From Deltaproteobacteria bacterium (GTDB lineage: Bacteria > Desulfobacterota > WTBG01 > CAIYCZ01 > CAIRTM01), in NCBI GenBank assembly GCA_024276465.1, contig JAJRXD010000119.1, forward strand, positions 1 through 64,000: a DNA stretch of 64,000 bases, in the 5' to 3' direction. The position numbers and the translations under genes were made by a program. This document shows, one piece after another, positions 7,983 to 54,845 of this stretch; positions within the stretch are counted from its first letter, which is position 1, and each line of letters begins with the position of its first letter. Below the pieces are notes generated by a model that was not told where the DNA came from, ran no database searches, and worked only from the letters and a program-made list of their open reading frames with translations.

Positions 7983-8597
7983 ATGAAACCCTGCCTTTAT
8001 TATTACCGCATGCTGCTCCTGCCGGCAGCACTTCTTTTTCTTTTACATTTCTCTCCTGTCAGTGCTGAAACAAAAGAATCCGGAAAAGAAATTAAGGACA
8101 GAATAGTACCAGTACCGGAAGACTGGATAGACACGACGCCTGTTCGTGGAGAATCACGTCCTTTGATCTATGAACGGACCGGATTTACCTATAAATGTAA
8201 CGAATGCCACGAAGACTTCAAAACACCTGTTAAATCCAATGATCCAAAGGGTGAGCACAAAAACCTGATGTTTGATCACGGCATGAACCTTAACTGCCTC
8301 AGCTGCCACCATCCTGACAACAGGAACTCATTTGTGGACCACGATGGAAGTGAAATCCCCAGGGATAAGCCGACTCAACTTTGCAGCAAATGTCACGGTC
8401 CGGTCTATAAGGACTGGAAGTCAGGGGTTCACGGACGATTGAATGGCTACTGGAATCTCAGTTTTGGTTCACGGACAAAATTAGCCTGCAACCAGTGCCA
8501 CGACCCCCATCGACCGGCATTCCAGAAAATGGCCCCCATGCCTCCACCTGCTGTTTCCAGGATAAATCATTTAAAGAAGGGACTGAAACATGAGTGA
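7983..8597 (+). CDS. Periplasmic tetraheme c-type cytochrome
   Basis: This secreted electron carrier has four CxxCH motifs (CNECH, CLSCH, CSKCH, CNQCH), each followed by His-rich segments that could supply distal ligands. The start at 7983 gives a charged N terminus and a hydrophobic signal peptide ending around VSAET; 8010 (MLLLPAALLFLL) is an alternative. Neither has a strong ribosome site. The last 8 bp overlap the iron-sulfur gene, indicating a tight operon. By context it probably passes electrons between the FeS/NrfD membrane module and the octaheme enzyme encoded downstream. It is not a NapC/NrfH type, as no membrane anchor remains after cleavage. Confidence 0.85.
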   Translation: MKPCLYYYRMLLLPAALLFLLHFSPVSAETKESGKEIKDRIVPVPEDWIDTTPVRGESRPLIYERTGFTYKCNECHEDFKTPVKSNDPKGEHKNLMFDHGMNLNCLSCHHPDNRNSFVDHDGSEIPRDKPTQLCSKCHGPVYKDWKSGVHGRLNGYWNLSFGSRTKLACNQCHDPHRPAFQKMAPMPPPAVSRINHLKKGLKHE

Positions 8598-9561
8598 GTT
8601 GTGCCGGAATGGACAAAAAAAGACGGGCAGCTGTTCATCCGGTAAAAAGCCCCGCCAGGCGTTCAACCGCCGCAGTTTCCTGAAAGCCGGTGTCGGAACA
8701 ATAGCATCCTGTGCTGCTGTTGGCTGGGCTTTGTCACCCCTGAGAAAAATGAACAATGATTTAAGCCTTGATGAGTTCCTGCAGAACCATTATTCACGTT
8801 TGACCCCTGAGATGATGGATAAAATCCTTGTTCGCATTCAAAAAGAAATCAAACGTGACTATGGCGTGGAAGCAAACATCCGTGACATAAAACCATTAAA
8901 CAATGTTGAGTATGCTTATGCTCTTAACATTGGCAGATGCATAGGCTGCAGACGGTGTGTTTATGCGTGCATGAAGGAAAACAACAATTCTCGCGATCCT
9001 GCAATCCAGTATATACGGGTTTTGCAGATGGACAACGGCTCTCTTGACCTTGAAAAGTCAGAACATTATTATAATCCCGAATCAGTCCCCCAACAAGGCA
9101 AGTATTATATGCCGGTGCAGTGCCAGCAGTGTAAAAAGCCTCCCTGCACCAAGGTATGTCCGATCAAAGCTACATGGAAGGAGCCTGACGGTATTGTTGT
9201 TGTGGACTATAACTGGTGCATAGGATGCCGTTATTGTATGGCTGCATGTCCATACTGGGCCAGGCGATTCAATTTCAGCAAACCGGCAATACCGAAGGAT
9301 GAAATTATTAGTGAAATGGCCTATCTTGGTAACCGCATCCGGCCACGCGGTGTAGTGGAAAAATGTACCTTTTGCCTGCGGAGGACCAGACAGGGTCAAT
9401 ATCCGGTATGCATGGAGGTTTGCCCGACAGGCTCAAGAATATTCGGGAATATTACTGATCAGGAAAGCCCGATTAACTACATCCTGAGGGAACACCGGGT
9501 TTACGTGCTCAAGGAGGAAGCCGGCACAGTTCCCCGTTTTTATTATTTTTTTGATAAGTAA
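8590..9561 (+). CDS. TAT-exported 4x[4Fe-4S] electron-transfer subunit (DsrO/HmeA/NrfC-like)
   Basis: This 323-residue periplasmic iron-sulfur subunit carries the twin-arginine signal NRRSFLKAGVG at about residues 25-35. Four ferredoxin-type cysteine groups follow: CIGCRRCVYAC, CQQCKKPPCTKVCP, CIGCRYCMAACP, and a final split group with CTFCLRR and CMEVCP. This pattern is that of DsrO, HmeA, NrfC and PhsB-like subunits, which connect an NrfD-type quinone-reactive protein to periplasmic partners. The neighbours, a tetraheme cytochrome and an NrfD-like gene, fit. A hairpin and repeat element separate it from the NrfD gene. Confidence 0.92.
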   Translation: MSELCRNGQKKTGSCSSGKKPRQAFNRRSFLKAGVGTIASCAAVGWALSPLRKMNNDLSLDEFLQNHYSRLTPEMMDKILVRIQKEIKRDYGVEANIRDIKPLNNVEYAYALNIGRCIGCRRCVYACMKENNNSRDPAIQYIRVLQMDNGSLDLEKSEHYYNPESVPQQGKYYMPVQCQQCKKPPCTKVCPIKATWKEPDGIVVVDYNWCIGCRYCMAACPYWARRFNFSKPAIPKDEIISEMAYLGNRIRPRGVVEKCTFCLRRTRQGQYPVCMEVCPTGSRIFGNITDQESPINYILREHRVYVLKEEAGTVPRFYYFFDK

Positions 9562-9920
9562 AAATCCGGGTCCAGAGGACCCGGCATTGATAAGCCTGGA
9601 AGGGCGTGCTTTTTGTTTTTCAAATCCCATGCAACGCAGCCGAGCTTGTCGTATTTGAATGCGGATGAAGGGTCCAAACTGTCTGAGCAAAGCGAGTTTT
9701 TGGACCCGCCGCAGGCAAATACACAAGCGAGGGCAGCCGAAGGCCAAAGTTGCGGGCGGCCTTTCTTTTGTTTCGTTTTCTTTGGCCGTCAAAGAAAATG
9801 AAAGTTAGCTTTTGGCCATTCATTTCTTCTTATGGCTTAGCCTATGATCTGTGACCTTGCCATCAGGACAAGGTTTTTACTGATAGAATAAATATAGACA
9901 ATTTTTAAAAAAATATTTTT
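9562..9920. repeat. Hairpin plus dispersed mosaic repeat inside the operon
   Basis: A perfect 8-bp stem (CCGGGTCC/GGACCCGG) at 9566-9584 follows the FeS gene but has no T-tract. From about 9610 to 9800 there is a long element with the stem GGGTCCAAA (9670-9678)/TTTGGACCC (9699-9707) and a segment around GCGGGCGGCCTTTC. It resembles a common non-coding dispersed repeat whose chance translations end in a Phe-rich GRPFFCFVFFG-like string. It creates an unusually long gap within an otherwise compact operon and may set subunit ratios. No gene is likely here. Confidence 0.6.
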
Positions 9921-11138
9921 ATGAGCGATTATCTGGTTTTTCTTTGGAGATCATACAAACTCAGCTTCTCAGGCAGCCCGAAATACTATGCCTGGATGAC
10001 CTTTCTGACAATTCTCTGTATAATAGGCCTGCATGCTTTTACCAGGCAGATGGCAGAGGGCCTGGCCATTACAGGAATGATGGATCAGGTCTCATGGGGG
10101 GTTTATATTGCAAACTTTACCTTTATCGTCGGTCTTGCGGCAGCCGCTGTTATGCTGGTCATACCTGCTTATATCTACAACAACAAACATCTCCATGACG
10201 TCGTAATACTGGGAGAACTGTTAGCTATTGCAGCCATAATAATGTGTCTTATGTTTGTCACTGCAGATCTTGGCCGATGGGACAGGTTCTGGCACCTCAT
10301 ACCTTTAATAGGCATTTTCAACTTTCCTGTTTCAATGCTTTCCTGGGATGTTGTTGTCCTTATGGGATACTTACTTCTGAACATGCACATTTGCGGTTAC
10401 CTCCTGTATATGAAATATCTTAACAAAAAGCCAAGCATGCTTTTTTACATTCCCTTCGTTCTGATAGCCATCTTCTGGGCAATCAGCATCCATACTGTTA
10501 CTGCCTTTCTCTACGTAGGGCTGGTTGGCCGCCCGTTCTGGAACGCTGCTATTGTGGCACCCCGGTTTATAGGGTCGGCTTTTACTGCTGGTCCGGGGCT
10601 GATGATTATTGCATTTCAGGTCATCCGCCGTAACACACGTTATCATATCTCTGACGAAGCACTTCATATTCTCCGCCAGATAGTAACCATAGCACTGCTT
10701 GTAAACCTTTTTCTGCTGGGATGTGAGGTCTTTAAGGAGTTTTATTCCGATTCTCTGCATACAAGTTCAGCAAGATACCTGTTCTTCGGCCTTCACGGCC
10801 ATGACGCGCTGGTACCATGGATATGGCTGGCTATTGTTATGGAAATCATTGCAGGCATTATTTTAATCATCCCGAATATGGCCAGAAATTTGACATTATT
10901 GAACATTGCCTGCATTCTTTCTTTTGCAGGTATCTGGATCGAGAAGGGAATGGGTATGATTATCCCCGGGTTTCTGCCAACCCCTCTTGGAGAGATTGTG
11001 GAATATTTTCCAACAGCTAATGAAACCTGGATCTGCATTGGCATCTGGTCTTTTGGCCTTTTAGTTTATTCCTGGTTGATACACCTGGCCATTCCAATTC
11101 TGTCGGGGACCTTTCACCATCAAAAGAAAAGTTTATAA
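9921..11138 (+). CDS. NrfD/DsrP-family quinone-interacting integral membrane subunit
   Basis: This 405-residue polytopic protein has about ten hydrophobic segments and the NrfD/polysulfide reductase pattern: GVYIANFTFIVGLAAAAV in the second segment, TADLGRWDRFWHL, and FPVSMLSWDVVV. In DsrMKJOP, Hme and Qrc complexes such subunits exchange electrons and protons with the menaquinone pool and pass electrons to a periplasmic FeS subunit, here the upstream gene. The ATG at 9921 has only an AT-rich leader, with no strong ribosome site. The octaheme gene follows 36 bp later. Direction of electron flow is not set by sequence; menaquinol oxidation is the simplest reading. Confidence 0.92.
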   Translation: MSDYLVFLWRSYKLSFSGSPKYYAWMTFLTILCIIGLHAFTRQMAEGLAITGMMDQVSWGVYIANFTFIVGLAAAAVMLVIPAYIYNNKHLHDVVILGELLAIAAIIMCLMFVTADLGRWDRFWHLIPLIGIFNFPVSMLSWDVVVLMGYLLLNMHICGYLLYMKYLNKKPSMLFYIPFVLIAIFWAISIHTVTAFLYVGLVGRPFWNAAIVAPRFIGSAFTAGPGLMIIAFQVIRRNTRYHISDEALHILRQIVTIALLVNLFLLGCEVFKEFYSDSLHTSSARYLFFGLHGHDALVPWIWLAIVMEIIAGIILIIPNMARNLTLLNIACILSFAGIWIEKGMGMIIPGFLPTPLGEIVEYFPTANETWICIGIWSFGLLVYSWLIHLAIPILSGTFHHQKKSL

Positions 11139-11174
11139 ATTTGAAAATACTAAATCAAGGTACAGGAGGAAACC

Positions 11175-12560
11175 ATGAAAATCAGTTGCAGTAAAGTGTC
11201 AGTTGTAACCCTTTTTGCTTTTGCAGCCATGTTAGGCACAGCATTTGCCGGCTATACACTTGCCGAAATTTCCAGGGAATCAAAAAAGTGTATTGACTGC
11301 CACAAAAAAGAATCCCTGTCAATTTATGAGCAGTGGGGAAGCAGCAAGCATTATGTGGCAAATGTAGGCTGCTATGAATGCCATAAGGCTGAGGCTGATG
11401 ACAGGGATGCTTTAAAGCATGAGGGGCAGATCATTGCAACAATTGTCAGCCCGAAAGACTGCGCAAGATGTCATGAAAAGGAAGTTAAGGAATTTACCGG
11501 GTCCCACCATGCAAAAGGGGGAAAGATCCTGGGCTCGCTTGACAATATCCTTGCAGAGGTTGTTGAGGGAAACCGTGCTTTTAAAACACCCGCATTCCCT
11601 GAAGGAAACTCTGCTGCAGCTGTAAGCGGATGCTGGCAATGTCATGGCAGTGAGGTGAAAGTACTCAAAGACGGCAGTCTTGATCCTGCAACCTGGCCCA
11701 ATACCGGAATCGGCAGGATTAATCCTGACGGCTCGGAGGGATCATGTTCCGCATGTCATTCGCGCCACATTTTTTCCGCAGCCCAGGCCCGCCATCCTGA
11801 CAACTGCGGGAAGTGCCATCTGGGCCCTGACCACCCGCAGCTTGAAATCTACAAAGAATCAAAACACGGAATCTCTTTCAGCTCCAATATCGACAGGATT
11901 AATCTTGACAGCCCGAAATGGATTGTCGGAGAGGACTACGATACCGGCCCCACATGTGCTACCTGTCATATGAGCGCTACCCCCAGGCAGCCTGTAACCC
12001 ATGATGTAGGCATGAGAATAAGCTGGAACAACAGGCCGATTCTTTCCATAAGGCCTGAGAAATCCGATGCCAGAATGGGCCTGCCAGGTGCTGAAATTAA
12101 CTGGGAGGTCAGACGTAAAAACATGCAGGACGTATGCATCAACTGTCATAATGAAAAATATGTTAATTCTTTTTATCAGCAGTATGATGCGCTGATTGAT
12201 CTGTACAACAACAAGTTTGCAAAACCCGGCAAGGAACTTATGGCACTGACTAAACCGCTTCTAAAGCCTGCCAAATTTTCAAATAAAATTGATTTCACAT
12301 GGTTTGAGCTGTGGCATCATGAAGGACGGCGCGCGCGCCATGGAGCATCCATGATGGGGCCTGACTACACACACTGGCACGGAACCTATGATATTGCCAA
12401 AAACTTCTATCACGAACTGCTTCCTGAGCTTGAGGAACTGGTTGAAAAGGGACTTCATTCAAAAAATAAGGTCAGGAGGGAAGCTGCTGAAAAACTGCAG
12501 CAAAAAATAAAAGAAGTTCTTAACAGCCCTGATCACAGGTGGTATTTGAACAAAAAATGA
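11175..12560 (+). CDS. Octaheme c-type cytochrome of the hydroxylamine oxidoreductase (HAO) family
   Basis: This 461-residue secreted protein has a signal peptide (cleavage near AFAG) and exactly eight CxxCH motifs, starting at Cys39, 66, 96, 153, 191, 211, 261 and 321. The segment MMGPDYTHWHGTYD (about 393-406) and the preceding WHHEGRRARHGA are HAO-family hallmarks. HAO enzymes oxidise hydroxylamine through a P460 heme cross-linked to Tyr. Epsilonproteobacterial-type relatives lack the cross-link and reduce nitrite or hydroxylamine. Coupling here to a tetraheme cytochrome and FeS/NrfD quinone module in an anaerobe favours a reductive role, which is inference. A strong ribosome site (AGGAGG) precedes ATG 11175. 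Confidence 0.9.
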   Translation: MKISCSKVSVVTLFAFAAMLGTAFAGYTLAEISRESKKCIDCHKKESLSIYEQWGSSKHYVANVGCYECHKAEADDRDALKHEGQIIATIVSPKDCARCHEKEVKEFTGSHHAKGGKILGSLDNILAEVVEGNRAFKTPAFPEGNSAAAVSGCWQCHGSEVKVLKDGSLDPATWPNTGIGRINPDGSEGSCSACHSRHIFSAAQARHPDNCGKCHLGPDHPQLEIYKESKHGISFSSNIDRINLDSPKWIVGEDYDTGPTCATCHMSATPRQPVTHDVGMRISWNNRPILSIRPEKSDARMGLPGAEINWEVRRKNMQDVCINCHNEKYVNSFYQQYDALIDLYNNKFAKPGKELMALTKPLLKPAKFSNKIDFTWFELWHHEGRRARHGASMMGPDYTHWHGTYDIAKNFYHELLPELEELVEKGLHSKNKVRREAAEKLQQKIKEVLNSPDHRWYLNKK

Positions 12561-13021
12561 GTCTCCAGGATAAAACTGCCGAACAGAATTATAAGAACGC
12601 TCTTGGTGAGCATGCCCGTTTTGCAGCTTCACGTGCCAAAGCCAGATTAGGGGGGGCTTTAAGCACGGATAATTTAAATATATTTTTGTCTGATTCCCAG
12701 TGTTTACGCTTTCCCACGGAAATTGTTTATTCCCGTGAAGGGCTTGAGGCTCATCAGTTCGCCCAGCCTTTCATTGTCCACGGAGATAATGGACAAAAAT
12801 GCCGTCTCCATGTCGATCCCCTGCTGCAGGAACACCCTGAAGAAATTTATCTGATTGTTGCATACATGGCAGCTATTATAAATTATGGTGAAGCAGCAAC
12901 AACAGATATAGCTGAACTTCAGGGAAGCCTGCTGACCGAAATGCCAAAACAGGAATTCTACAATGAAATTTGCAGGGTGGCTGACTCCATAGCATTACAG
13001 CACTATTCCCAACATCCATGA
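12557..13021 (+). CDS. Protein of unknown function coupled to the octaheme cytochrome gene
   Basis: This 154-residue soluble protein has no signal peptide or membrane segment. I choose ATG 12557 because it overlaps the octaheme gene stop as ATGA, implying translational coupling; a GTG six codons upstream is possible. The N-terminal third is basic and helical, the middle has TEIVYSREGLEAHQFAQPFIVHG, and the C-terminal half is helical and acidic (LQEHPEEIYLIVAYMAAI). His residues cluster in the middle, with only two Cys, far apart. I do not recognise the family. Its position suggests a maturation, assembly or regulatory role for the respiratory module. Confidence 0.75.
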   Translation: MSLQDKTAEQNYKNALGEHARFAASRAKARLGGALSTDNLNIFLSDSQCLRFPTEIVYSREGLEAHQFAQPFIVHGDNGQKCRLHVDPLLQEHPEEIYLIVAYMAAIINYGEAATTDIAELQGSLLTEMPKQEFYNEICRVADSIALQHYSQHP

Positions 13022-17485: not shown

Positions 17486-19129
17486 ATGGGTGAATTAAAC
17501 ATGTTTTGTTACCAGTGTGAACAGACAGCTCAGGGTCAGGGCTGCACAAAGGGAGGAGTTTGCGGAAAATCACCTCAAGTTTCAGACCTGCAGGATCTGT
17601 TGATCTATGCACTGCGGGGACTTTCACAGTATGTCCTTGAAGGACTTAAAAAGGGTGAAAAAGATGATGAGGTTAATAATTTTACCTGTGAAGCGCTCTT
17701 TGCCACACTTACAAACGTAAACTTTGATCCTGAACGGATTATCTCTCTTATCAACAGGACTGTTGAGATCAGGGAAGCCCTTAAAGAAAAAATTGCTGCT
17801 GCAGGGGGCAGCGTGGAAACAACAGAGGATGCCGCAACATTTACACCTGCTTCTGATATTGACGGTCTGATTAATCAGGCTTCACCAGCCGGACTTAAGG
17901 CAGATCCAGGGGTTGACCCGGACATACTTTCCCTTCAGCACACGCTTCTTTTCGGCATAAAAGGTGTGGCTGCCTATGCTTATCATGCACAGACCCTTGG
18001 CCAGCAGGACGAAGCAGTATTTAATTTTATTTATGAAGCTCTTGTTGCTCCTTTTAACAAAAATTTAAGCCTTGATGACTGGGTAAAGCTGGTACTTAAA
18101 TGCGGTGAGATCAATCTGCGGGCAATGGAACTTTTAGATGCAGCCAATACAGGCACTTATGGTCACCCGGTTCCTACCAAAGTACCCCTTGGAGTGAAAA
18201 AAGGCAAAGCAATCCTTGTGTCAGGTCATGATCTGAAGGATCTAGCTGAACTCCTGAAGCAAACCGAGGGCAAAGGCATTAACATCTATACTCATGGTGA
18301 GATGCTTCCATGCCACGGTTATCCTGAGCTTAAAAAATACAATCACTTCTACGGCCACTATGGTACAGCGTGGCAGAACCAGAAAAAGGAATTTGCTGAG
18401 TTTCCAGGCGCCATCCTCATGACCACAAACTGCATTCAGAAGCCTGCAGACACATATAAAGACAATATTTTCACTACAGGGCTTGTGGGATTTCCGGGAG
18501 TTACCCATATCAAGAACAGCAACTATTCCCCTGTTATTGAAAAAGCCCTTGAACTGCCTGGATTTCCTGAAGACATAGAGGGAAAAACAGTCATGGTTGG
18601 CTTTGCCCGCAATGCAGTAATGGGAGTTGCCGGCAAGGTAATAGAGGCTGTGAAAGATAAAGCAATCCGCCATTTTTTCCTGGTTGCAGGATGTGATGGC
18701 GCAAAGCCGGGCAGAAACTACTATACTGAATTTGTTGAAAAGGTTCCCAAGGATTGTGTTGTCCTGACACTTGCGTGCGGAAAGTTCCGTTTCTTTGACA
18801 AGGATCTGGGTGATATTGGCGGCATACCACGCCTTCTTGATATAGGACAGTGCAATGATGCTTATTCAGCAGTACAGATTGCAGTTGCACTGGCAGATGC
18901 ATTTAAATGTGGTGTTAATGATTTACCCCTGTCTATGATTATTTCATGGTATGAGCAGAAAGCTGTTTCCATTCTTCTGTCACTGCTTCATCTTGGCATC
19001 AAGGATATAAGGCTTGGGCCTTCACTTCCGGCATTTATTACACCCAATGTGCTTGATGTTCTCGTGAAGAATTTTGATATTAAACCAATCAGCAGTCCGG
19101 ATGAAGATCTTAAGACCATTTTAGGTTGA
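17486..19129 (+). CDS. hcp: Hydroxylamine reductase / hybrid-cluster protein
   Basis: Hcp is a cytoplasmic iron-sulfur-oxo protein that reduces hydroxylamine in vitro and is considered a nitric-oxide reductase protecting against nitrosative stress. The 547-residue protein begins with the proximal cluster motif CX2CX8CX5C (Cys8, 11, 20, 26), the pattern of class I proteins from strict anaerobes. Hybrid-cluster segments such as HGEMLPCHGYPEL and the later CDGAKPGRNYY follow. AGGAGG upstream supports ATG 17486. It is the first gene of an apparent operon with an HD-domain protein and a ferredoxin, behind an HcpR-type site. Confidence 0.97.
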   Translation: MGELNMFCYQCEQTAQGQGCTKGGVCGKSPQVSDLQDLLIYALRGLSQYVLEGLKKGEKDDEVNNFTCEALFATLTNVNFDPERIISLINRTVEIREALKEKIAAAGGSVETTEDAATFTPASDIDGLINQASPAGLKADPGVDPDILSLQHTLLFGIKGVAAYAYHAQTLGQQDEAVFNFIYEALVAPFNKNLSLDDWVKLVLKCGEINLRAMELLDAANTGTYGHPVPTKVPLGVKKGKAILVSGHDLKDLAELLKQTEGKGINIYTHGEMLPCHGYPELKKYNHFYGHYGTAWQNQKKEFAEFPGAILMTTNCIQKPADTYKDNIFTTGLVGFPGVTHIKNSNYSPVIEKALELPGFPEDIEGKTVMVGFARNAVMGVAGKVIEAVKDKAIRHFFLVAGCDGAKPGRNYYTEFVEKVPKDCVVLTLACGKFRFFDKDLGDIGGIPRLLDIGQCNDAYSAVQIAVALADAFKCGVNDLPLSMIISWYEQKAVSILLSLLHLGIKDIRLGPSLPAFITPNVLDVLVKNFDIKPISSPDEDLKTILG

Positions 19130-19348: not shown

Positions 19349-19409
19349 TAAATAATGAATTAATTAATTCTTGGTATCCATTGCTAACTTCGTCTCTGGA
19401 GGTAATCAA

Positions 19410-20141
19410 ATGAAATGCCCGGGTCAGGATACACGTTACTGGAGATCAGGAGATATTTATGAAGAGAAATGTCCTGAATGTGGTAATGTTATCGAATTTT
19501 TCAAGGATGATTCCACACGTAAGTGCAAAAAATGCGGCACAAGGGTCCTTAACCCGAAAATTGACTTTGGCTGTGCCACGTACTGCCAATATGCCGAACA
19601 ATGTCTGAAAGAGCTGCCTCCTGAAATTCTTGCTGAAAAAAAGAATCTTTTGAAAGACCGTGTTGCTATTGAAATGAAACGCTATTTTGAAAAAGATTTT
19701 AAACGCATAGGGCATGCTACAAGCGTAGCCCGGTATGCTGAACAGATTGTTAAAAAAGAAAAAGGGGATCTGGCAGTGGTTTTAATAGCTTCCTATCTCC
19801 ATGATATTGGCATCAGGGAAGCTGAGAAAAAATACCAGAGCTCTGCTGCAAGGTATCAGGAAGAGCTTGGTCCTCCAACAGCACGCAAAATCCTTGAAAC
19901 CATTGGAGCAGCTTCAGGACTGACAGATGAAGTATGTGATATTATCGGCCACCATCACCATCCCCGGTCAGAGGAAACAGATAATTTCAAAGCACTGTCT
20001 GATGCAGATCTGATAGTAAACCTTGAAGATGCCCAGAAAGACAAACCGCTTGATAAGGAAAAATTAAAGCATATTATTAACAGTAAGTTTTTTACTGAAA
20101 CAGGAAAAAAAATAGCCTGTACTGTGTTTGAACTTAATTAG
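19410..20141 (+). CDS. HD-domain hydrolase with N-terminal zinc-ribbon, hcp-linked
   Basis: This 243-residue cytoplasmic protein has an N-terminal zinc-ribbon: CPECGNVIEFF then CKKCGTRV, plus extra Cys in CATYCQYAEQC. The HD phosphohydrolase domain follows from about 100, with HATSVARYAEQI, YLHDIGI for the HD pair, and HHHHPRSEE. HD domains hydrolyse nucleotide or other phosphoesters; the substrate is unknown. ATG 19410 is fixed by GGAGG at 19398-19402; an in-frame extension upstream lacks one. The same gene often accompanies hcp and a ferredoxin in anaerobes, as I recall, and the order here supports a role in nitrosative stress. Confidence 0.85.
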   Translation: MKCPGQDTRYWRSGDIYEEKCPECGNVIEFFKDDSTRKCKKCGTRVLNPKIDFGCATYCQYAEQCLKELPPEILAEKKNLLKDRVAIEMKRYFEKDFKRIGHATSVARYAEQIVKKEKGDLAVVLIASYLHDIGIREAEKKYQSSAARYQEELGPPTARKILETIGAASGLTDEVCDIIGHHHHPRSEETDNFKALSDADLIVNLEDAQKDKPLDKEKLKHIINSKFFTETGKKIACTVFELN

Positions 20142-20196: not shown

Positions 20197-20952
20197 ATGA
20201 AAATAAAACGAAAAATCATTGAAATTGATGAAAAACTCTGCAATGGCTGCGGTCAGTGTGTCCCCTCGTGTGCTGAAGGAGCTATTTCAATAATAGATGG
20301 CAAAGCAAAAGTCATTTCGGATAAATACTGTGATGGCCTGGGAGCATGCATTGGTGAGTGCCCTGAACGCGCCTTGCGCATTGTTGAACGCGAAGTAGAA
20401 GAATTCGACGAAAAAGCTGTTGCAGAACATCTGGCCATTAAAGAAAAAAAGGAGTCCCCCCGGGAAGAAGGCCTGCCCTGCCAGTGCCCGTCTTCCTGGA
20501 CAGGATCCTTCTCCTCCGGGTCTGAGTGCAAACCTGACGATGAATCTGAACCATGTCATGCTGAACAGTCTGCTCTTACTCACTGGCCAATACAGATCAA
20601 GTTAATTCCACCACATGCTTCATTTTTGAAAAATTCAGATCTGCTTGTTGCATCAGACTGCACCTCGTTTTCCTGTCCAGGCTTCCACCGCGATTTTATC
20701 AAAGGCAGGGTTCTGCTGATTGGATGCCCCAAATTTGATGAGCAGGAACTTTACAGGGAAAAATTTCGCGATATTTTCTCACAGTCTGACATTAAAAGCG
20801 TAACTGTTGTGGTAATGGAAGTTCCATGCTGTCACGGAATGCCCCGCATCGTACAGGCAGGAATGGATGAAGCAGGCAAAAATATTCCTCTGGAAGTTGT
20901 CACAATCAGTGTTCAGGGAAAAATCATCAGCAGGGAAAAAATGGGGGGGTAA
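20197..20952 (+). CDS. 2x[4Fe-4S] ferredoxin-like protein, probable Hcp electron donor
   Basis: This 251-residue protein has two clusters near the N terminus: CNGCGQCVPSC then CDGLGACIGECP. A long C-terminal domain of about 170 residues follows, with SDCTSFSCPGFH, LIGCPKFDE and VPCCHGMPR, whose Cys residues could bind another cofactor. Proteins of this shape are regularly encoded with hcp and probably reduce it. It starts 55 bp after the HD gene. A run of seven G at 20942-20948 sits at the stop; a -1 slip there would extend the protein by about 57 residues into 21113. Confidence 0.85.
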   Translation: MKIKRKIIEIDEKLCNGCGQCVPSCAEGAISIIDGKAKVISDKYCDGLGACIGECPERALRIVEREVEEFDEKAVAEHLAIKEKKESPREEGLPCQCPSSWTGSFSSGSECKPDDESEPCHAEQSALTHWPIQIKLIPPHASFLKNSDLLVASDCTSFSCPGFHRDFIKGRVLLIGCPKFDEQELYREKFRDIFSQSDIKSVTVVVMEVPCCHGMPRIVQAGMDEAGKNIPLEVVTISVQGKIISREKMGG

Positions 20953-49205: not shown

Positions 49206-52200
49206 TTATAAACCACAGTGTCTTTTCAGATATTTTCTCAGGTGTTTTGCTGTAAGTGATTTTTTGCCCTGAGAAGCTGCAACCTCTTCCGGAGGACCGA
49301 CAGCAACTATTGCCCCTCCCTTCTCGCCTCCTCCAGGGCCAAGGTCTATTATATAGTCCGCCTGTCTAATAACCTCCAGATTGTGCTCAATAATTACAAT
49401 TGTGTTCCCCAAATCAATAAGGGACTGCAGGATTTCCATAAGCTTTTCAATGTCAGCAAAATGGAGTCCTGTTGTTGGCTCATCAAAAATATAGAGGGTT
49501 TTTCCATGGTCGCTTTTGCACAGTTCGGATGCTATTTTTATCCTCTGCGCTTCTCCCCCGGAAAGAGTAGGGCTCGGCTGCCCAAGAGAAACATATCCTA
49601 AACCCATTTTATTCAAAATACTCAGAGGCTTATATATTGCCGGAAGCCCCTTAAAAAAGTCACATCCTTCCTCAACCGTCATTGAAAGAACCTGGGAAAT
49701 ATCCTTTCCCTTAAAAAGTATCTGCAAAGTTTCTTCATTAAACCTTCTACCCTGACATACCTCACAGTCAACATACATGTCAGGAAGAAAGCTCATTACG
49801 ATTTTTGTTTTTCCCTGGCCTGAACATTTTTCACAGCGCCCCCCCCTCACATTAAAGGAAAACCGGCCCGGGGAGTATCCTCTTATTCTTGCGTCCGGCA
49901 AAAGCGAAAAAAGTGTTCGTATTTCATTGTAAAACCCCACATAGGTTGCAGGAATTGACCTTGGGGTTTTTACAATAGGTGACTGGTCTATCTCCACAAC
50001 ACGCTTGAACTGATCTGCTCCGATTATTTTTTCATGAGCCCCAACTCTGCCATAATAAGGGGTTATAATTTTTTTAAGACCTCTAAACAATGTTTCCCTC
50101 ACCAGAGTTGTTTTGCCCGAACCGGACACACCGGTAACAACGATAAGCCGCCCAACCGGAAACATGACTGTTATTTCCTTAAGGTTGTGTTCGCGGGCAC
50201 CGAAAATGGTTACAAATGAACAACCGTTAACCGGTCTGGAAATTACAGGGGTGTTATTCCTGTTTCTGCCTGAGAGATAAGACCCGGTAACAGATGATCT
50301 GTTCTGTATTAAATCCTGGAGTGTCCCGGATGCAACTATCTTTCCTCCACAGGTTCCACCTCCTGGCCCAAGATCAACTATATAATCCGCACTCCTTATT
50401 GTGTCCTCATCATGTTCAACAACTATGACGCTGTTGCCCTTTTGCTGAAGCTCTCTTATGATTTTTAAAAGATTTTCATTGTCATGGGGATGAAGGCCAA
50501 TGGTTGGCTCATCAAGCACATAGGCAACGCCCTTTAAATTGGACGCAACCTGAGAGACTAACCGTATGCGCTGGGCTTCTCCTCCGGAAAGGCTGTCAGC
50601 ACTTCTGTTAAGTGTAAGGTAAGAAAGACCGGCTTTTTCCAAAAGCGAAAGTTTTGGCAGAAGTTCCTGAAAAACAGGTCTGGCAATCTGTTTTTGTCTC
50701 TCTGTCAATGAAAGTGACGATAAAAAACTGAACAGTCGGCCGGGAGTCAAACTGGTAAGGTCCGCAATTGATTTGCCATTAATCGTTACGCAGCGTGCCG
50801 CAGCATTAAGACGTGTTCCTTTACAGTCAGGGCATGGCATCTCACTGTAAAACTGGGTCATATACTCATTCCAGCCGGGTTTTTTCTGCATTGCAGGGTC
50901 CTCAAAAAGCCTGACAAGTCCTGGGAAGGATTTGTTTCCGTAAAAAAGAGCTTTGTATTTTTTTTGTGAAATTTTTTCAACAGGGACTTCCATTGAAATT
51001 TTCAAGTCATTCTGCATCCGGATAAATATTTTCTTCTTTACGCCCTTCGATATCAAAGTTGCAGACAGGGGAGCTATTGCCCCCTGCCCTATGGTTTTTT
51101 TTCTGTCACACACAAGAAAGTCCGGTGAAATAGAGGTGAATGTCCCATATCCTGAACAGGTATGACAGGCGCCATGCCTGCTGTTAAAAGAAAAAAGGCG
51201 TGGATCTAACTCTTCCATACTGATTTTACATCTTGAACAGTGGGATTTCATACTGTAGAATTCTTCAGTTCCGTCTGAACAGACAAGAATCATTTCACCC
51301 TCTCCCAGAGCAAGGGCCTTTTTAACTTCTGAGTGCAAGTGTGGCAGCCCGGCATTACAGGGTGTCATCTCAGATGTGACTAACTCAATTTGATGTTCAT
51401 GATATCGTTTAACCGCAAAAATATTTTTGAGATATATGATTTTTCCATCAATCCGAATTTTTTCATATCCGTCTTTTTTTGCTTTACGGATAATATCCTT
51501 ATGGAACCCCTTCCTGCCCCTGACAAGTGGAGAAAGGATCATTACAGGATTATGTGCATGTGCTTTTAAAATATCTTCAGCAATATTTTTTGAGGAATGA
51601 AGTGTGAGGGTCTGCCCGCATGAGGTACAGTGCTGCTTGCCTGTCTTTGCAAACAGGAGCCTCAGATAGTGATAAATTTCAGTTGTTGTGGCAACTGTTG
51701 ACTTTCTCCCCCCACGTGAAAGGAGTTGCTCAATTGCAACACTCGGCGGCAGCCCCCTGACAGAATCAACTTCCGGACGATTCAGACGGGTAATATACTG
51801 TCGTGCAAAAGGGGAGAGGGTTTCCAGAAACCTCCTTTCTCCTTCCGCAAAAATAATATCAAATGCAAGCGTTGACTTTCCTGAACCTGAAAGCCCTGTA
51901 ATTACAACCATCTTTTGCCTTGGTATCTTCAGGGATATATTGTCCAGATTATGCTCGCGTGCTCCTTCAATTTCAATATGATTGTTGCAGCTAAGGACAT
52001 TGCTTTTGCAGAGTTCACTCCCCTTCCTTGACAAAACATCTGTATTCAGCCCCTGTTCTTCCGGCAAATGCCTCTTTTTTGGATCAAGATATTTCCCAAG
52101 AAAAGCGCCGGTATGGGAATTTGTTTTTTGCACAGTTTCTTCCGGAGTTCCCTGGACAAGCACATACCCTCCATCATCCCCTCCCTCAGGGCCAAGGTCA

Positions 52201-54845
52201 ATTATATGGTCCGCGCATTTAATTATCTCCATGTTATGCTCTACAATGATGATTGAATGCCCGTGATTAAGAAAAAAATTGAAAGTTTTAAGAAGTTTTT
52301 TTATATCGTCCTGATGCAGCCCTGTTGTAGGTTCGTCAAAAAGAAAAAGAGTCCTGCCTGTACTCCCCTGTCTTATAAAGGATGCTAACTTGAGCCTCTG
52401 TGATTCCCCTCCTGACAGCGTATTTGCAGGCTGCCCAAGCCTCAGATACCCTAACCCCACCATTTCAAGAAGCCGTAACGGGTATTCTATTTTTGGTTCT
52501 TTCGAAAAAAAATCCCGTGCTTCGGAAACAGTCATCTGCAGCACGTCATGGATGTTCCTGTCCTGATACGTAACATCAAGAACTTCCGATGTGTACCTTG
52601 TGCTGCGGCATGACAGACAGCTTACATATACGTCCGCTAAAAACTGCATTTCAATTTTCTCGAATCCTTCACCCTGGCACTGCTCACACCTTCCGCCGCT
52701 GGTATTAAAGGAGAAGGTTGAAGCAGTATAATGCCGTCCTTTTGCAAGTTCTGTCCGTGCAAAAATGTTACGGATTGCATCAAAGACTTTCATGTACGTA
52801 ATTGGGTTGGAACGTGGTGATTTTCCAATTGGGCTCTGGTCCATGAGGATTACATTGTCCGGAGAATTGTCACCATCAATGAAGCATTGATTTGATTTTT
52901 CACCCTTTTTCGCAAGATTCTTGTGTATTACCTCTTCAAGCAGAGTGCTCTTTCCTGATCCGGACACACCTGTTATGCACACAAAAATGCCAAGGGGGAT
53001 ATCAAGGCTGATGTTTTTAAGGTTGTGGATTGAAGCTCCCACAATTTTAATCCAATTTTTTTGATCAGGCTTTCTTCTCTGTTCCGGAACCGGAATGTTG
53101 AGGCTGCCGGATAAATACTGACCCGTAAGAGAGGATCTGCTTTTTACAAGGTCCAGGGGAGTTCCATGAAAAACAATGTTTCCTCCCCTTTCACCGGAAA
53201 AAGGGCCAAGATCAATCACTGTATCACTTTGCATGATAATGTCAGGATCATGCTCTACCATTACGATAGTATTTCCTGTATCCCTCAGCCCTCTTAAAAT
53301 ATTGATAAGCCTGGATGTATCTCTTGGATGAAGCCCAATGCTTGGCTCATCAAGAACATACAGGGTGTTAACGAGGGACGATCCCAGGGCAGTAGTAAGG
53401 CTTGCCCGCTCAATTTCCCCGCCTGAAAGGGTCCTTGACTGGCGGTACAGAGTAAGATAGCCCAGCCCGATTTTATCAAGATACTCAAGCCTGGAAATAA
53501 TATCATTAAGAAGAACATCTGCTGTTTTTTCCAGTCTGGTGCTGTTTTTTAATTTTTCAAAAAATCTGAAAGATTCATTTATGTTCATTGAATATATATC
53601 GGCAATGCTTTTGCCATCGATCCTGAACAGAAGCGTGTCGTCCTTGAAACGGGTACCATTGCATTCAGAGCAGGTTCTATATGCCCTGTATTTTGAAAGA
53701 AGGACCCTTATGTGCATTTTATAGGTCTTTGTTTCCAGCCAGTTAAAAAAACCTGTCACCCCGTAGAAGTCATCATTGCCGTAGACAATTGCATCCTTAT
53801 ATTTTTCCTGCAGACTCTTGAATGGCTTATCCGTTGGAATTTTTTTCTTTTTGCAATAGGATAGTAGATCATAATAGGCCTCTCTGTAGGATGGTGTTGA
53901 CCACGGCTTAATAGCATTATCTTTAACAGATAGTGTCTTATCCGGTATTACCGCATCAATATCAACCTCTATTGTCTTTCCAAATCCATTACAGTTTTTA
54001 CATGCCCCTAAAGGACTGTTAAATGAGAACAGATTTGGAGACGGCTTTCTGTAGCTGATATTGCAATTTGGACAATGCAGTAATGTGCTTAATTTAAGGG
54101 GAGGGGTCATGTCTTCCGGAAAAAAAAAGGTTAGGAGACCTTTTCCGAATTTTACTGCTGTCTCTATGGAATCCGTAAGTCTTTTTTTGTTTCTTCCTGA
54201 GATTACAATACGATCTGAAACTATGTCAATGCATGCATCGAGGTGATCAGAAATAAGCCCTGTGGAAATTTCTTTTACTTTTCCATGGTGGTATATTCTG
54301 AAAAACCCCTGACGCCTGAGACCTTTTTCTATTTCTTCGGGTGAAACAAGAGAAGAAGCAGTTACAAAAAAGGGAAAGGTTATAACTGACGTGACAGACT
54401 CAAATCTCTGTAACAGTTTTTTTGCTATGGTATCAGAAGAATCCTTTTCAACAAGGCGCCCGCATTGCCTGCAGAAAAGCCTGGCCATTCTTGAAAAGAG
54501 AAGTTTCATATAATCATTGATTTCTGTAAATGTTCCAAGGGTTGATCTGGAAGATTTTATGGGATTTGTCTGGCTAATGGCAATTGCAGGCAGTATGCCT
54601 TCAATGCTTCTGATATTGGGCTTGTCCATGCGGTCCATGAACTGGCGGGCATAAGCTGAAAAGCTTTCGATATAACGGCGCTGGCCTTCAGCATAAAGTG
54701 TATCAAAAGCCAGACTCGATTTTCCTGACCCGCTCACACCGGTTATGACTGTTATCCTGTTGCATTGCAGGTCAACATCAAGATTATTCAGATTGTTCTG
54801 GCTTGCGCCCCGTACAATTATCCTGTTATTTGCAGTTCTATTCAC
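49206..54845 (-). CDS. uvrA: Tandem double UvrA (excinuclease ABC subunit A, two-copy fusion)
   Basis: UvrA recognises bulky DNA lesions in nucleotide excision repair and hands DNA to UvrB. This protein has 1879 residues, about twice the normal 940, and contains two complete UvrA units joined at about residue 955-985. Four P-loops are visible (GVSGSGKSSL, GVSGSGKSTL, GLSGSGKSTL, GVSGSGKTTL), with four LSGGE signatures. Each unit has its zinc elements: CPNC..CKNC and CEQC..CLSC in the first, CSRC..CHTC and CEKC..CEVC in the second. Double UvrA is known in chlamydiae and some deltaproteobacteria. The intact fusion would mimic the UvrA dimer in one chain. Confidence 0.95.
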   Translation of the reverse strand: MNRTANNRIIVRGASQNNLNNLDVDLQCNRITVITGVSGSGKSSLAFDTLYAEGQRRYIESFSAYARQFMDRMDKPNIRSIEGILPAIAISQTNPIKSSRSTLGTFTEINDYMKLLFSRMARLFCRQCGRLVEKDSSDTIAKKLLQRFESVTSVITFPFFVTASSLVSPEEIEKGLRRQGFFRIYHHGKVKEISTGLISDHLDACIDIVSDRIVISGRNKKRLTDSIETAVKFGKGLLTFFFPEDMTPPLKLSTLLHCPNCNISYRKPSPNLFSFNSPLGACKNCNGFGKTIEVDIDAVIPDKTLSVKDNAIKPWSTPSYREAYYDLLSYCKKKKIPTDKPFKSLQEKYKDAIVYGNDDFYGVTGFFNWLETKTYKMHIRVLLSKYRAYRTCSECNGTRFKDDTLLFRIDGKSIADIYSMNINESFRFFEKLKNSTRLEKTADVLLNDIISRLEYLDKIGLGYLTLYRQSRTLSGGEIERASLTTALGSSLVNTLYVLDEPSIGLHPRDTSRLINILRGLRDTGNTIVMVEHDPDIIMQSDTVIDLGPFSGERGGNIVFHGTPLDLVKSRSSLTGQYLSGSLNIPVPEQRRKPDQKNWIKIVGASIHNLKNISLDIPLGIFVCITGVSGSGKSTLLEEVIHKNLAKKGEKSNQCFIDGDNSPDNVILMDQSPIGKSPRSNPITYMKVFDAIRNIFARTELAKGRHYTASTFSFNTSGGRCEQCQGEGFEKIEMQFLADVYVSCLSCRSTRYTSEVLDVTYQDRNIHDVLQMTVSEARDFFSKEPKIEYPLRLLEMVGLGYLRLGQPANTLSGGESQRLKLASFIRQGSTGRTLFLFDEPTTGLHQDDIKKLLKTFNFFLNHGHSIIIVEHNMEIIKCADHIIDLGPEGGDDGGYVLVQGTPEETVQKTNSHTGAFLGKYLDPKKRHLPEEQGLNTDVLSRKGSELCKSNVLSCNNHIEIEGAREHNLDNISLKIPRQKMVVITGLSGSGKSTLAFDIIFAEGERRFLETLSPFARQYITRLNRPEVDSVRGLPPSVAIEQLLSRGGRKSTVATTTEIYHYLRLLFAKTGKQHCTSCGQTLTLHSSKNIAEDILKAHAHNPVMILSPLVRGRKGFHKDIIRKAKKDGYEKIRIDGKIIYLKNIFAVKRYHEHQIELVTSEMTPCNAGLPHLHSEVKKALALGEGEMILVCSDGTEEFYSMKSHCSRCKISMEELDPRLFSFNSRHGACHTCSGYGTFTSISPDFLVCDRKKTIGQGAIAPLSATLISKGVKKKIFIRMQNDLKISMEVPVEKISQKKYKALFYGNKSFPGLVRLFEDPAMQKKPGWNEYMTQFYSEMPCPDCKGTRLNAAARCVTINGKSIADLTSLTPGRLFSFLSSLSLTERQKQIARPVFQELLPKLSLLEKAGLSYLTLNRSADSLSGGEAQRIRLVSQVASNLKGVAYVLDEPTIGLHPHDNENLLKIIRELQQKGNSVIVVEHDEDTIRSADYIVDLGPGGGTCGGKIVASGTLQDLIQNRSSVTGSYLSGRNRNNTPVISRPVNGCSFVTIFGAREHNLKEITVMFPVGRLIVVTGVSGSGKTTLVRETLFRGLKKIITPYYGRVGAHEKIIGADQFKRVVEIDQSPIVKTPRSIPATYVGFYNEIRTLFSLLPDARIRGYSPGRFSFNVRGGRCEKCSGQGKTKIVMSFLPDMYVDCEVCQGRRFNEETLQILFKGKDISQVLSMTVEEGCDFFKGLPAIYKPLSILNKMGLGYVSLGQPSPTLSGGEAQRIKIASELCKSDHGKTLYIFDEPTTGLHFADIEKLMEILQSLIDLGNTIVIIEHNLEVIRQADYIIDLGPGGGEKGGAIVAVGPPEEVAASQGKKSLTAKHLRKYLKRHCGL

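Follow-up and report, generated by a model that had tools for sequence, protein, structure and literature searches.

Five open reading frames (ORFs) on one strand span positions 7983-13021 of a 64,000-nucleotide stretch of DNA from a deltaproteobacterium (assembly GCA_024276465.1, contig JAJRXD010000119.1, positions 1 to 64,000; hereafter the window). Four of them, which we designate A, B, C, and D, probably encode a membrane-bound menaquinol:nitrite oxidoreductase that resembles NrfABCD, with a reductive member of the hydroxylamine oxidoreductase (HAO) superfamily in the place of NrfA. The fifth, E, follows D. An initial annotation of the window had reported a tetraheme cytochrome, an iron–sulfur protein with a twin-arginine (TAT) export signal, an NrfD-type subunit, and an octaheme HAO-family protein encoded together, and all five ORFs were indeed found:

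7983..8597, + strand: gene A, a periplasmic tetraheme c-type cytochrome of 204 residues, with four CXXCH motifs and an N-terminal hydrophobic signal segment
8590..9561, + strand: gene B, a TAT-exported ferredoxin-like protein of the DsrO/NrfC type, with RRSFLK and four 4-Cys motifs
9921..11138, + strand: gene C, a DsrP-like integral membrane subunit of the NrfD family (PF03916, NCBIfam DsrP)
11175..12560, + strand: gene D, an IhOCC-like octaheme cytochrome c of the HAO superfamily, with eight CXXCH motifs and matches in PDB and by fold
12557..13021, + strand: gene E, a family-less protein of 154 residues, ATGA-coupled to D and lacking a signal peptide

The product of gene D, whose 461 residues include the eight CXXCH motifs and an N-terminal hydrophobic segment, is placed among multiheme cytochromes by Pfam and NCBIfam and belongs to the HAO superfamily by its heme motifs, its sequence, and its fold, as the initial annotation had held. 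Its best match in PDB was 4qo5 (E = 4e-49), the IhOCC of Ignicoccus hospitalis, followed by chains of HAO, HAO-like proteins, and hydrazine dehydrogenase (the HAOs at ~1e-18); comparison of a D profile with HAO structures gave 4e-37. A model built without hemes (pLDDT 89.7) matched 4qo5 in Foldseek with a TM-score (TMq) of 0.71 and HAO-like structures with 0.51-0.58, at high root-mean-square deviations (6-9 Å). The protein carries the motif CHLGPDHP (Asp219, His220), and its score for the NrfA family (Cytochrom_C552) was 15.2 bits, below the cut-off of 24.1. IhOCC, the closest solved relative of D in both sequence and fold, differs from it in having Phe at the position of Trp401, Trp at that of Tyr398, and longer insertions (521 versus 461 residues). 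A genome of the anammox organism Candidatus Scalindua contains two D homologues (loci L161 and L162), and that of L161, the same protein as the D of locus L071 in the tree described below, has Trp at the Tyr398 position.

Genes B and C are the predicted iron–sulfur protein and NrfD-type membrane subunit that NrfABCD requires. The product of C, which has many hydrophobic segments, scored 121 bits for PF03916 and 408.7 bits for NCBIfam DsrP, above the cut-off of 350. That of B, with Cys motifs at residues 117, 178, 210, and 259, was placed with DsrO/QrcC-type ferredoxins, but its score for NCBIfam DsrO (167.4 bits) fell below the cut-off of 200. The platform had been described as DsrOP-like, and B and C do resemble DsrO and DsrP; the likeness to DsrMKJOP covers two subunits only, and the nearer functional template is NrfBCD. 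A true DsrMKJOP complex is ruled out by the DsrO score, by the missing partners (no DsrM, DsrK, or DsrJ gene was seen in the flanks of the locus), and by the finding of no dsrA above cut-off in the organism's own genome, a 4.1-Mb draft that is 95% complete (G000, of which the window's contig is C88). As in NrfABCD of Escherichia coli, a periplasmic iron–sulfur protein, an NrfD quinol subunit, and a soluble multiheme relay would serve a multiheme nitrite reductase, but relay and NrfA are both pentaheme in E. coli, whereas here the relay would be tetraheme A and the reductase octaheme D.

The module differs from NapC/HaoC-linked arrangements, as had been recognized at the outset. The product of A, with CXXCH motifs at residues 72, 105, 134, and 169, exceeded the Pfam cut-offs for Cytochrom_c3_2 and Cytochrome_C7; for the NapC/NirT family it reached 21.4 bits against a cut-off of 24.1, which rules out a NapC/NrfH-type protein. 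In contrast, the tetraheme cytochrome adjoining a more distant D homologue in locus L045 scored 128.6 bits for that family. Epsilonproteobacterial Hao/HaoC and the reverse HURM (Nautilia profundicola, PMC3701875) share with the present module a reductive enzyme of the HAO superfamily that draws its electrons from the quinone pool, but use a NapC-type anchor in place of an iron–sulfur protein, an NrfD subunit, and a soluble tetraheme cytochrome. In all, a NapC/NrfH-family tetraheme lies alongside the more distant D homologues (~40% identical) in five loci, so that octahemes of this type are wired to quinol by at least two routes, of which the NrfD platform is one. Meanwhile, a second A-B-C set on another contig of the same genome (C44; L053, 5000-20000), 45, 66, and 73% identical to A, B, and C, respectively, adjoins one protein with 11 CXXCH motifs and another with eight, as though this type of quinol platform also served another terminal cytochrome. 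The NapC/NrfH loci and this second copy together support modularity.

To survey gene order we scanned a named genome collection for D, kept the best 80 loci, and counted synteny and linkage in them by tblastn, restricting the order count to the 68 in which 3.3 kb or more of sequence precedes D. The D homologues were 58-77% identical across many phyla. In 36 of the 68 informative loci the genes stood as A-B-C-D on one strand; the order was D-A-B-C in six loci, and B and C were both present in 46 of the 80. The clustering of A-B-C-D is far above chance and recurs across phyla, and the conserved order argues that the genes act together. Within the window's own family, A-B-C-D is kept in three other genera (G004, G005, and G008; D 66-77% identical), of which G004 also carries E. 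Among 375 genomes sampled from the window's phylum, 74 had a D-like match at E ≤ 1e-80. The genes thus do stay together in relatives, as the initial annotation had anticipated.

In a maximum-likelihood tree built by a quick search from 94 octahemes, the window's D grouped with the rows of its own family and G004, near a Verrucomicrobiota group, and the mixing of phyla in the D tree suggests transfer. The D homologues beside NrfH-like genes formed a separate supported clade. The A-B-C and E labels were clustered on the tree, yet several changes were needed to account for them, which implies repeated gains or losses.

The genes linked to D point to its substrate. In 20 of the 80 loci NapA was encoded no more than ~10 kb away from D; of three representatives, two passed both NapA models and one passed one. 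By our own estimate a single napA would fall by chance within ~0.6% of 20-kb segments drawn from a 3-4 Mb genome, a figure to be read with the caution that the loci are not independent. In one genome (G312) the order is NapA-NapM-like-A-B-C-D-E in a row, and in four others (G370, G114, G302, and G092) D, A, B, C, and NapA lie close together. Because of this linkage nitrite is a plausible substrate. From gene families, order, and linkage we infer the substrate, the direction, and every electron-transfer step. C, as a member of the NrfD family, would oxidize menaquinol and deliver electrons to periplasmic B with its 4Fe-4S clusters, which would hand them to tetraheme A as the putative relay and thence to octaheme D, where nitrite would be reduced at the active-site heme. 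The product would be ammonium, or else hydroxylamine or nitric oxide (NO) passed to the hybrid cluster protein Hcp. A reductive HAO-superfamily enzyme that is not cross-linked would thus stand in for NrfA, and a tetraheme for pentaheme NrfB. That the organism's own genome, in its 95%-complete draft, gave no match to the NrfA family agrees with this reading, as do the gene for Hcp near D in the window, G004, and G008 and that for an anaerobic NO reductase-type flavodiiron protein directly after D in G008. Of the earlier proposal of a menaquinol-driven nitrite or hydroxylamine reductase, nitrite gains plausibility from the NapA linkage, and the mechanism keeps the status of a prediction from sequence.

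The arrangement is not new: Mardanov et al. (2016) and Slobodkina et al. (2017) reported a core of four such genes next to nap in two deep-sea thermophiles, Thermosulfurimonas dismutans (TDIS_0606-0609) and Dissulfuribacter thermophilus (DBT_2326-2329) (PMC4911364, PMC5276818), and Slobodkina et al. proposed that the T. dismutans locus serves to reduce nitrite. As published, those loci comprise a cytochrome, a 4Fe-4S protein, an NrfD membrane subunit, and a HaoA-like multiheme protein, as here; the passages that describe them give no E gene, and they differ from the window, which has no nap beside the locus. Octaheme Hao-like proteins of Phycisphaerae have been proposed as nitrite reductases (PMC11266412), and in Desulfurivibrio dismutans RS02855, which encodes an octaheme protein within a multiheme gene cluster, was the most upregulated gene of that cluster in nitrate ammonification (PMC12142623). 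The terms octaheme, HAO, and hydroxylamine do not occur in the text of a review of NrfD complexes (PMC8076601), and hence that review contains no complex with an HAO-type subunit. The genes, their families, their conserved order, and the nap and hcp linkage are established here. The core had already been published as a hypothesis; what is new is the breadth of its occurrence, the counts of linked genes, the analysis of the cross-link position, and gene E.

The P460 cross-link of HAO forms, as far as is known, between subunits, and consequently no alignment method is decisive and a monomer model cannot settle the position. The initial annotation had raised Tyr398 of D as the candidate cross-linking residue, and the alignments mostly placed the position elsewhere. 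With HMMER and a mixed profile, the Tyr at chain position 491 of 6m0p (NeHAO; presumably residue 467 of the mature protein, subtracting a 24-residue signal) fell in the column of Trp401. With MAFFT, the NeHAO Tyr fell on Trp401 under localpair and on His400 under globalpair and genafpair. Trp401 is invariant in all 94 D homologues, and Tyr398 is replaced by Ile, Phe, Trp, or His in 13 of them. With the position on Trp401 or His400 in most alignments, the balance favors a D product that is most likely an uncross-linked, reductive enzyme; an oxidative HAO is disfavored by the residue aligned there.

Several observations weigh against a respiratory nitrite reductase. In 34 of the 80 loci, some of which are short of flank, at least one of B and C was not found. 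No NapA above cut-off was found in the 95%-complete draft of the organism's own genome, and absences from this draft are to be read with that completeness in mind. Nitrite would then have to come from outside or from a divergent Nap-like enzyme: contig C169 (L146, 35500-41500) encodes a divergent NapA-like TAT molybdoprotein (300 bits against a NapA cut-off of 904) together with two NapG-like proteins. One alignment, made with hhalign, did pair Tyr398 with a Tyr of a Scalindua HAO-like protein. Finally, Slobodkina et al. (2017) raised tetrathionate or polysulfide metabolism as an alternative at the T. dismutans locus.

The lack of a NapA above cut-off would suit a module serving mainly to detoxify nitrite, NO, or hydroxylamine rather than to conserve energy by respiration, and so would the neighbors of D in the window's own family. 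In the window, three genes lie 4.5-8 kb downstream of E:

17486..19129, + strand: Hcp, hybrid cluster protein/hydroxylamine reductase, a linked neighbor (Pfam Prismane; NCBIfam hydroxylamine reductase, 847 bits, cut-off 367)
19371-20141, + strand: an HD-domain protein, after Hcp (Pfam HD)
20197-20952, + strand: a ferredoxin, after the HD-domain protein (Pfam Fer4)

The trio lies close to D in G004 and G008 as well, its order is repeated in loci L035/L058 and L037, and the HD-ferredoxin pair recurs in L041; Hcp was present in 2 of the 80 named loci. In G008, moreover, a gene for an anaerobic NO reductase-type flavodiiron protein (L037, 9176-10378; NCBIfam 732 bits, cut-off 635) lies directly downstream of D, at the usual place of E. 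We nevertheless judge a chiefly detoxifying role unlikely, since such a role would not need a four-subunit quinol complex and since respiration accords with the quinol route through NrfD and with the linkage to NapA outside this phylum.

Less probable still, and in our view improbable, is operation in the reverse direction, with hydroxylamine or another nitrogen compound being oxidized and electrons entering the quinone pool as in a HURM-like module. In its favor, D has kept the fold of HAO and, within the CHxGPDH motif, the Asp-His pair; subunits of the NrfD type are also able to reduce quinone, Qrc being an example (PMC8076601); and hhalign puts a Tyr near the cross-link position. Set against this are the Trp401 or His400 found at that position by most alignments, the standing of IhOCC as the best structural relative, and a NapA linkage that points to consumption of nitrite in nitrate respiration. 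A sulfur compound (sulfite, tetrathionate, or polysulfide) is a very unlikely substrate: the multiheme, iron–sulfur, and NrfD-like subunits of the sulfite reductase MccACD offer a parallel (PMC8076601), as does the alternative put forward for T. dismutans, but D matched HAO-superfamily structures only, with no MccA or tetrathionate reductase chain among the matches, and the linkage is to nap and hcp.

We turn now to gene E, for which, as the initial annotation had noted, no family could be recognized. The product has no hemes, no hydrophobic segments, and no signal peptide, and because it lacks a signal it is inferred to be cytoplasmic. It had no match in Pfam or NCBIfam and none by sequence in PDB; its homologues gave weak Pfam matches in one or two cases only (best E = 0.007). 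An AF2 model (pLDDT 95.8) found no fold match in PDB better than E = 0.59. Alignment of 26 homologues revealed ten invariant positions and, in several, a Cys-rich C-terminal tail. E was present in 25 of the 80 D loci, all of which have C, and directly followed D in 22. In the window's phylum it was found in five of the 375 genomes: directly after D in G000, G004, and G312, as a 36-residue piece only in G010, and in G093 (L193, G093:C56:1-12000) adjoining a queD-type gene in a 12-kb stretch in which no D, A, B, or C was labeled. Because of this last case E is not strictly tied to D. We speculate that E is an accessory factor, acting for example in the maturation, export, or quality checking of a subunit. 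Its client may more likely lie within A-B-C-D than be NapA, given that G000 has E without a NapA above cut-off.

More tentatively, these loci may amount to a distinct class of quinol:nitrite reductase, widely transferred and spread over six phyla or more, in which a reductive HAO works on an NrfBCD-like platform, NapA is often encoded nearby, and E serves as a dedicated accessory protein whose fold is unseen in PDB; we consider this possible but somewhat doubtful. Nitrate ammonification decides whether nitrogen is retained in a system, and surveys of it use nrfA and onr as markers (PMC10716430). If the class is real, surveys based on nrfA would miss such quinol:nitrite reductases, and Planctomycetota, Verrucomicrobiota, Thermodesulfobacteriota, and others would possess an overlooked route, a reductive HAO served by a quinol platform of its own. 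A-B-C-D would offer a simple genomic marker for it, and E a conserved, uncharacterized protein.

Finally, we note some features of the local layout. The start of B overlaps the end of A, and the ATG of E overlaps the TGA of D as ATGA. The latter coupling, remarked on in the initial annotation, is present in the window but not kept in G004, the nearest relative, where D and E are ~117 nucleotides apart. The gap between B and C holds one further feature, which lies outside the conserved module:

9640..9825, no strand assigned: an interspersed structured repeat, recognized by copy count and RNA fold

This 186-bp repeat has 30 matches in the organism's own genome, and the 360-nucleotide gap that carries it is strongly structured (RNA fold z-score of -6.3 for 9560-9920); a search of the window against Rfam gave no match. 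The gap is short in all three family relatives examined. With the repeat-bearing gap between them, A-B and C-D-E may be transcribed separately in this genome. Elsewhere in the window (49206-54845), an ORF of 1879 residues encodes a single chain in which one UvrA half follows another, as judged by two stretches matching NCBIfam UvrA.

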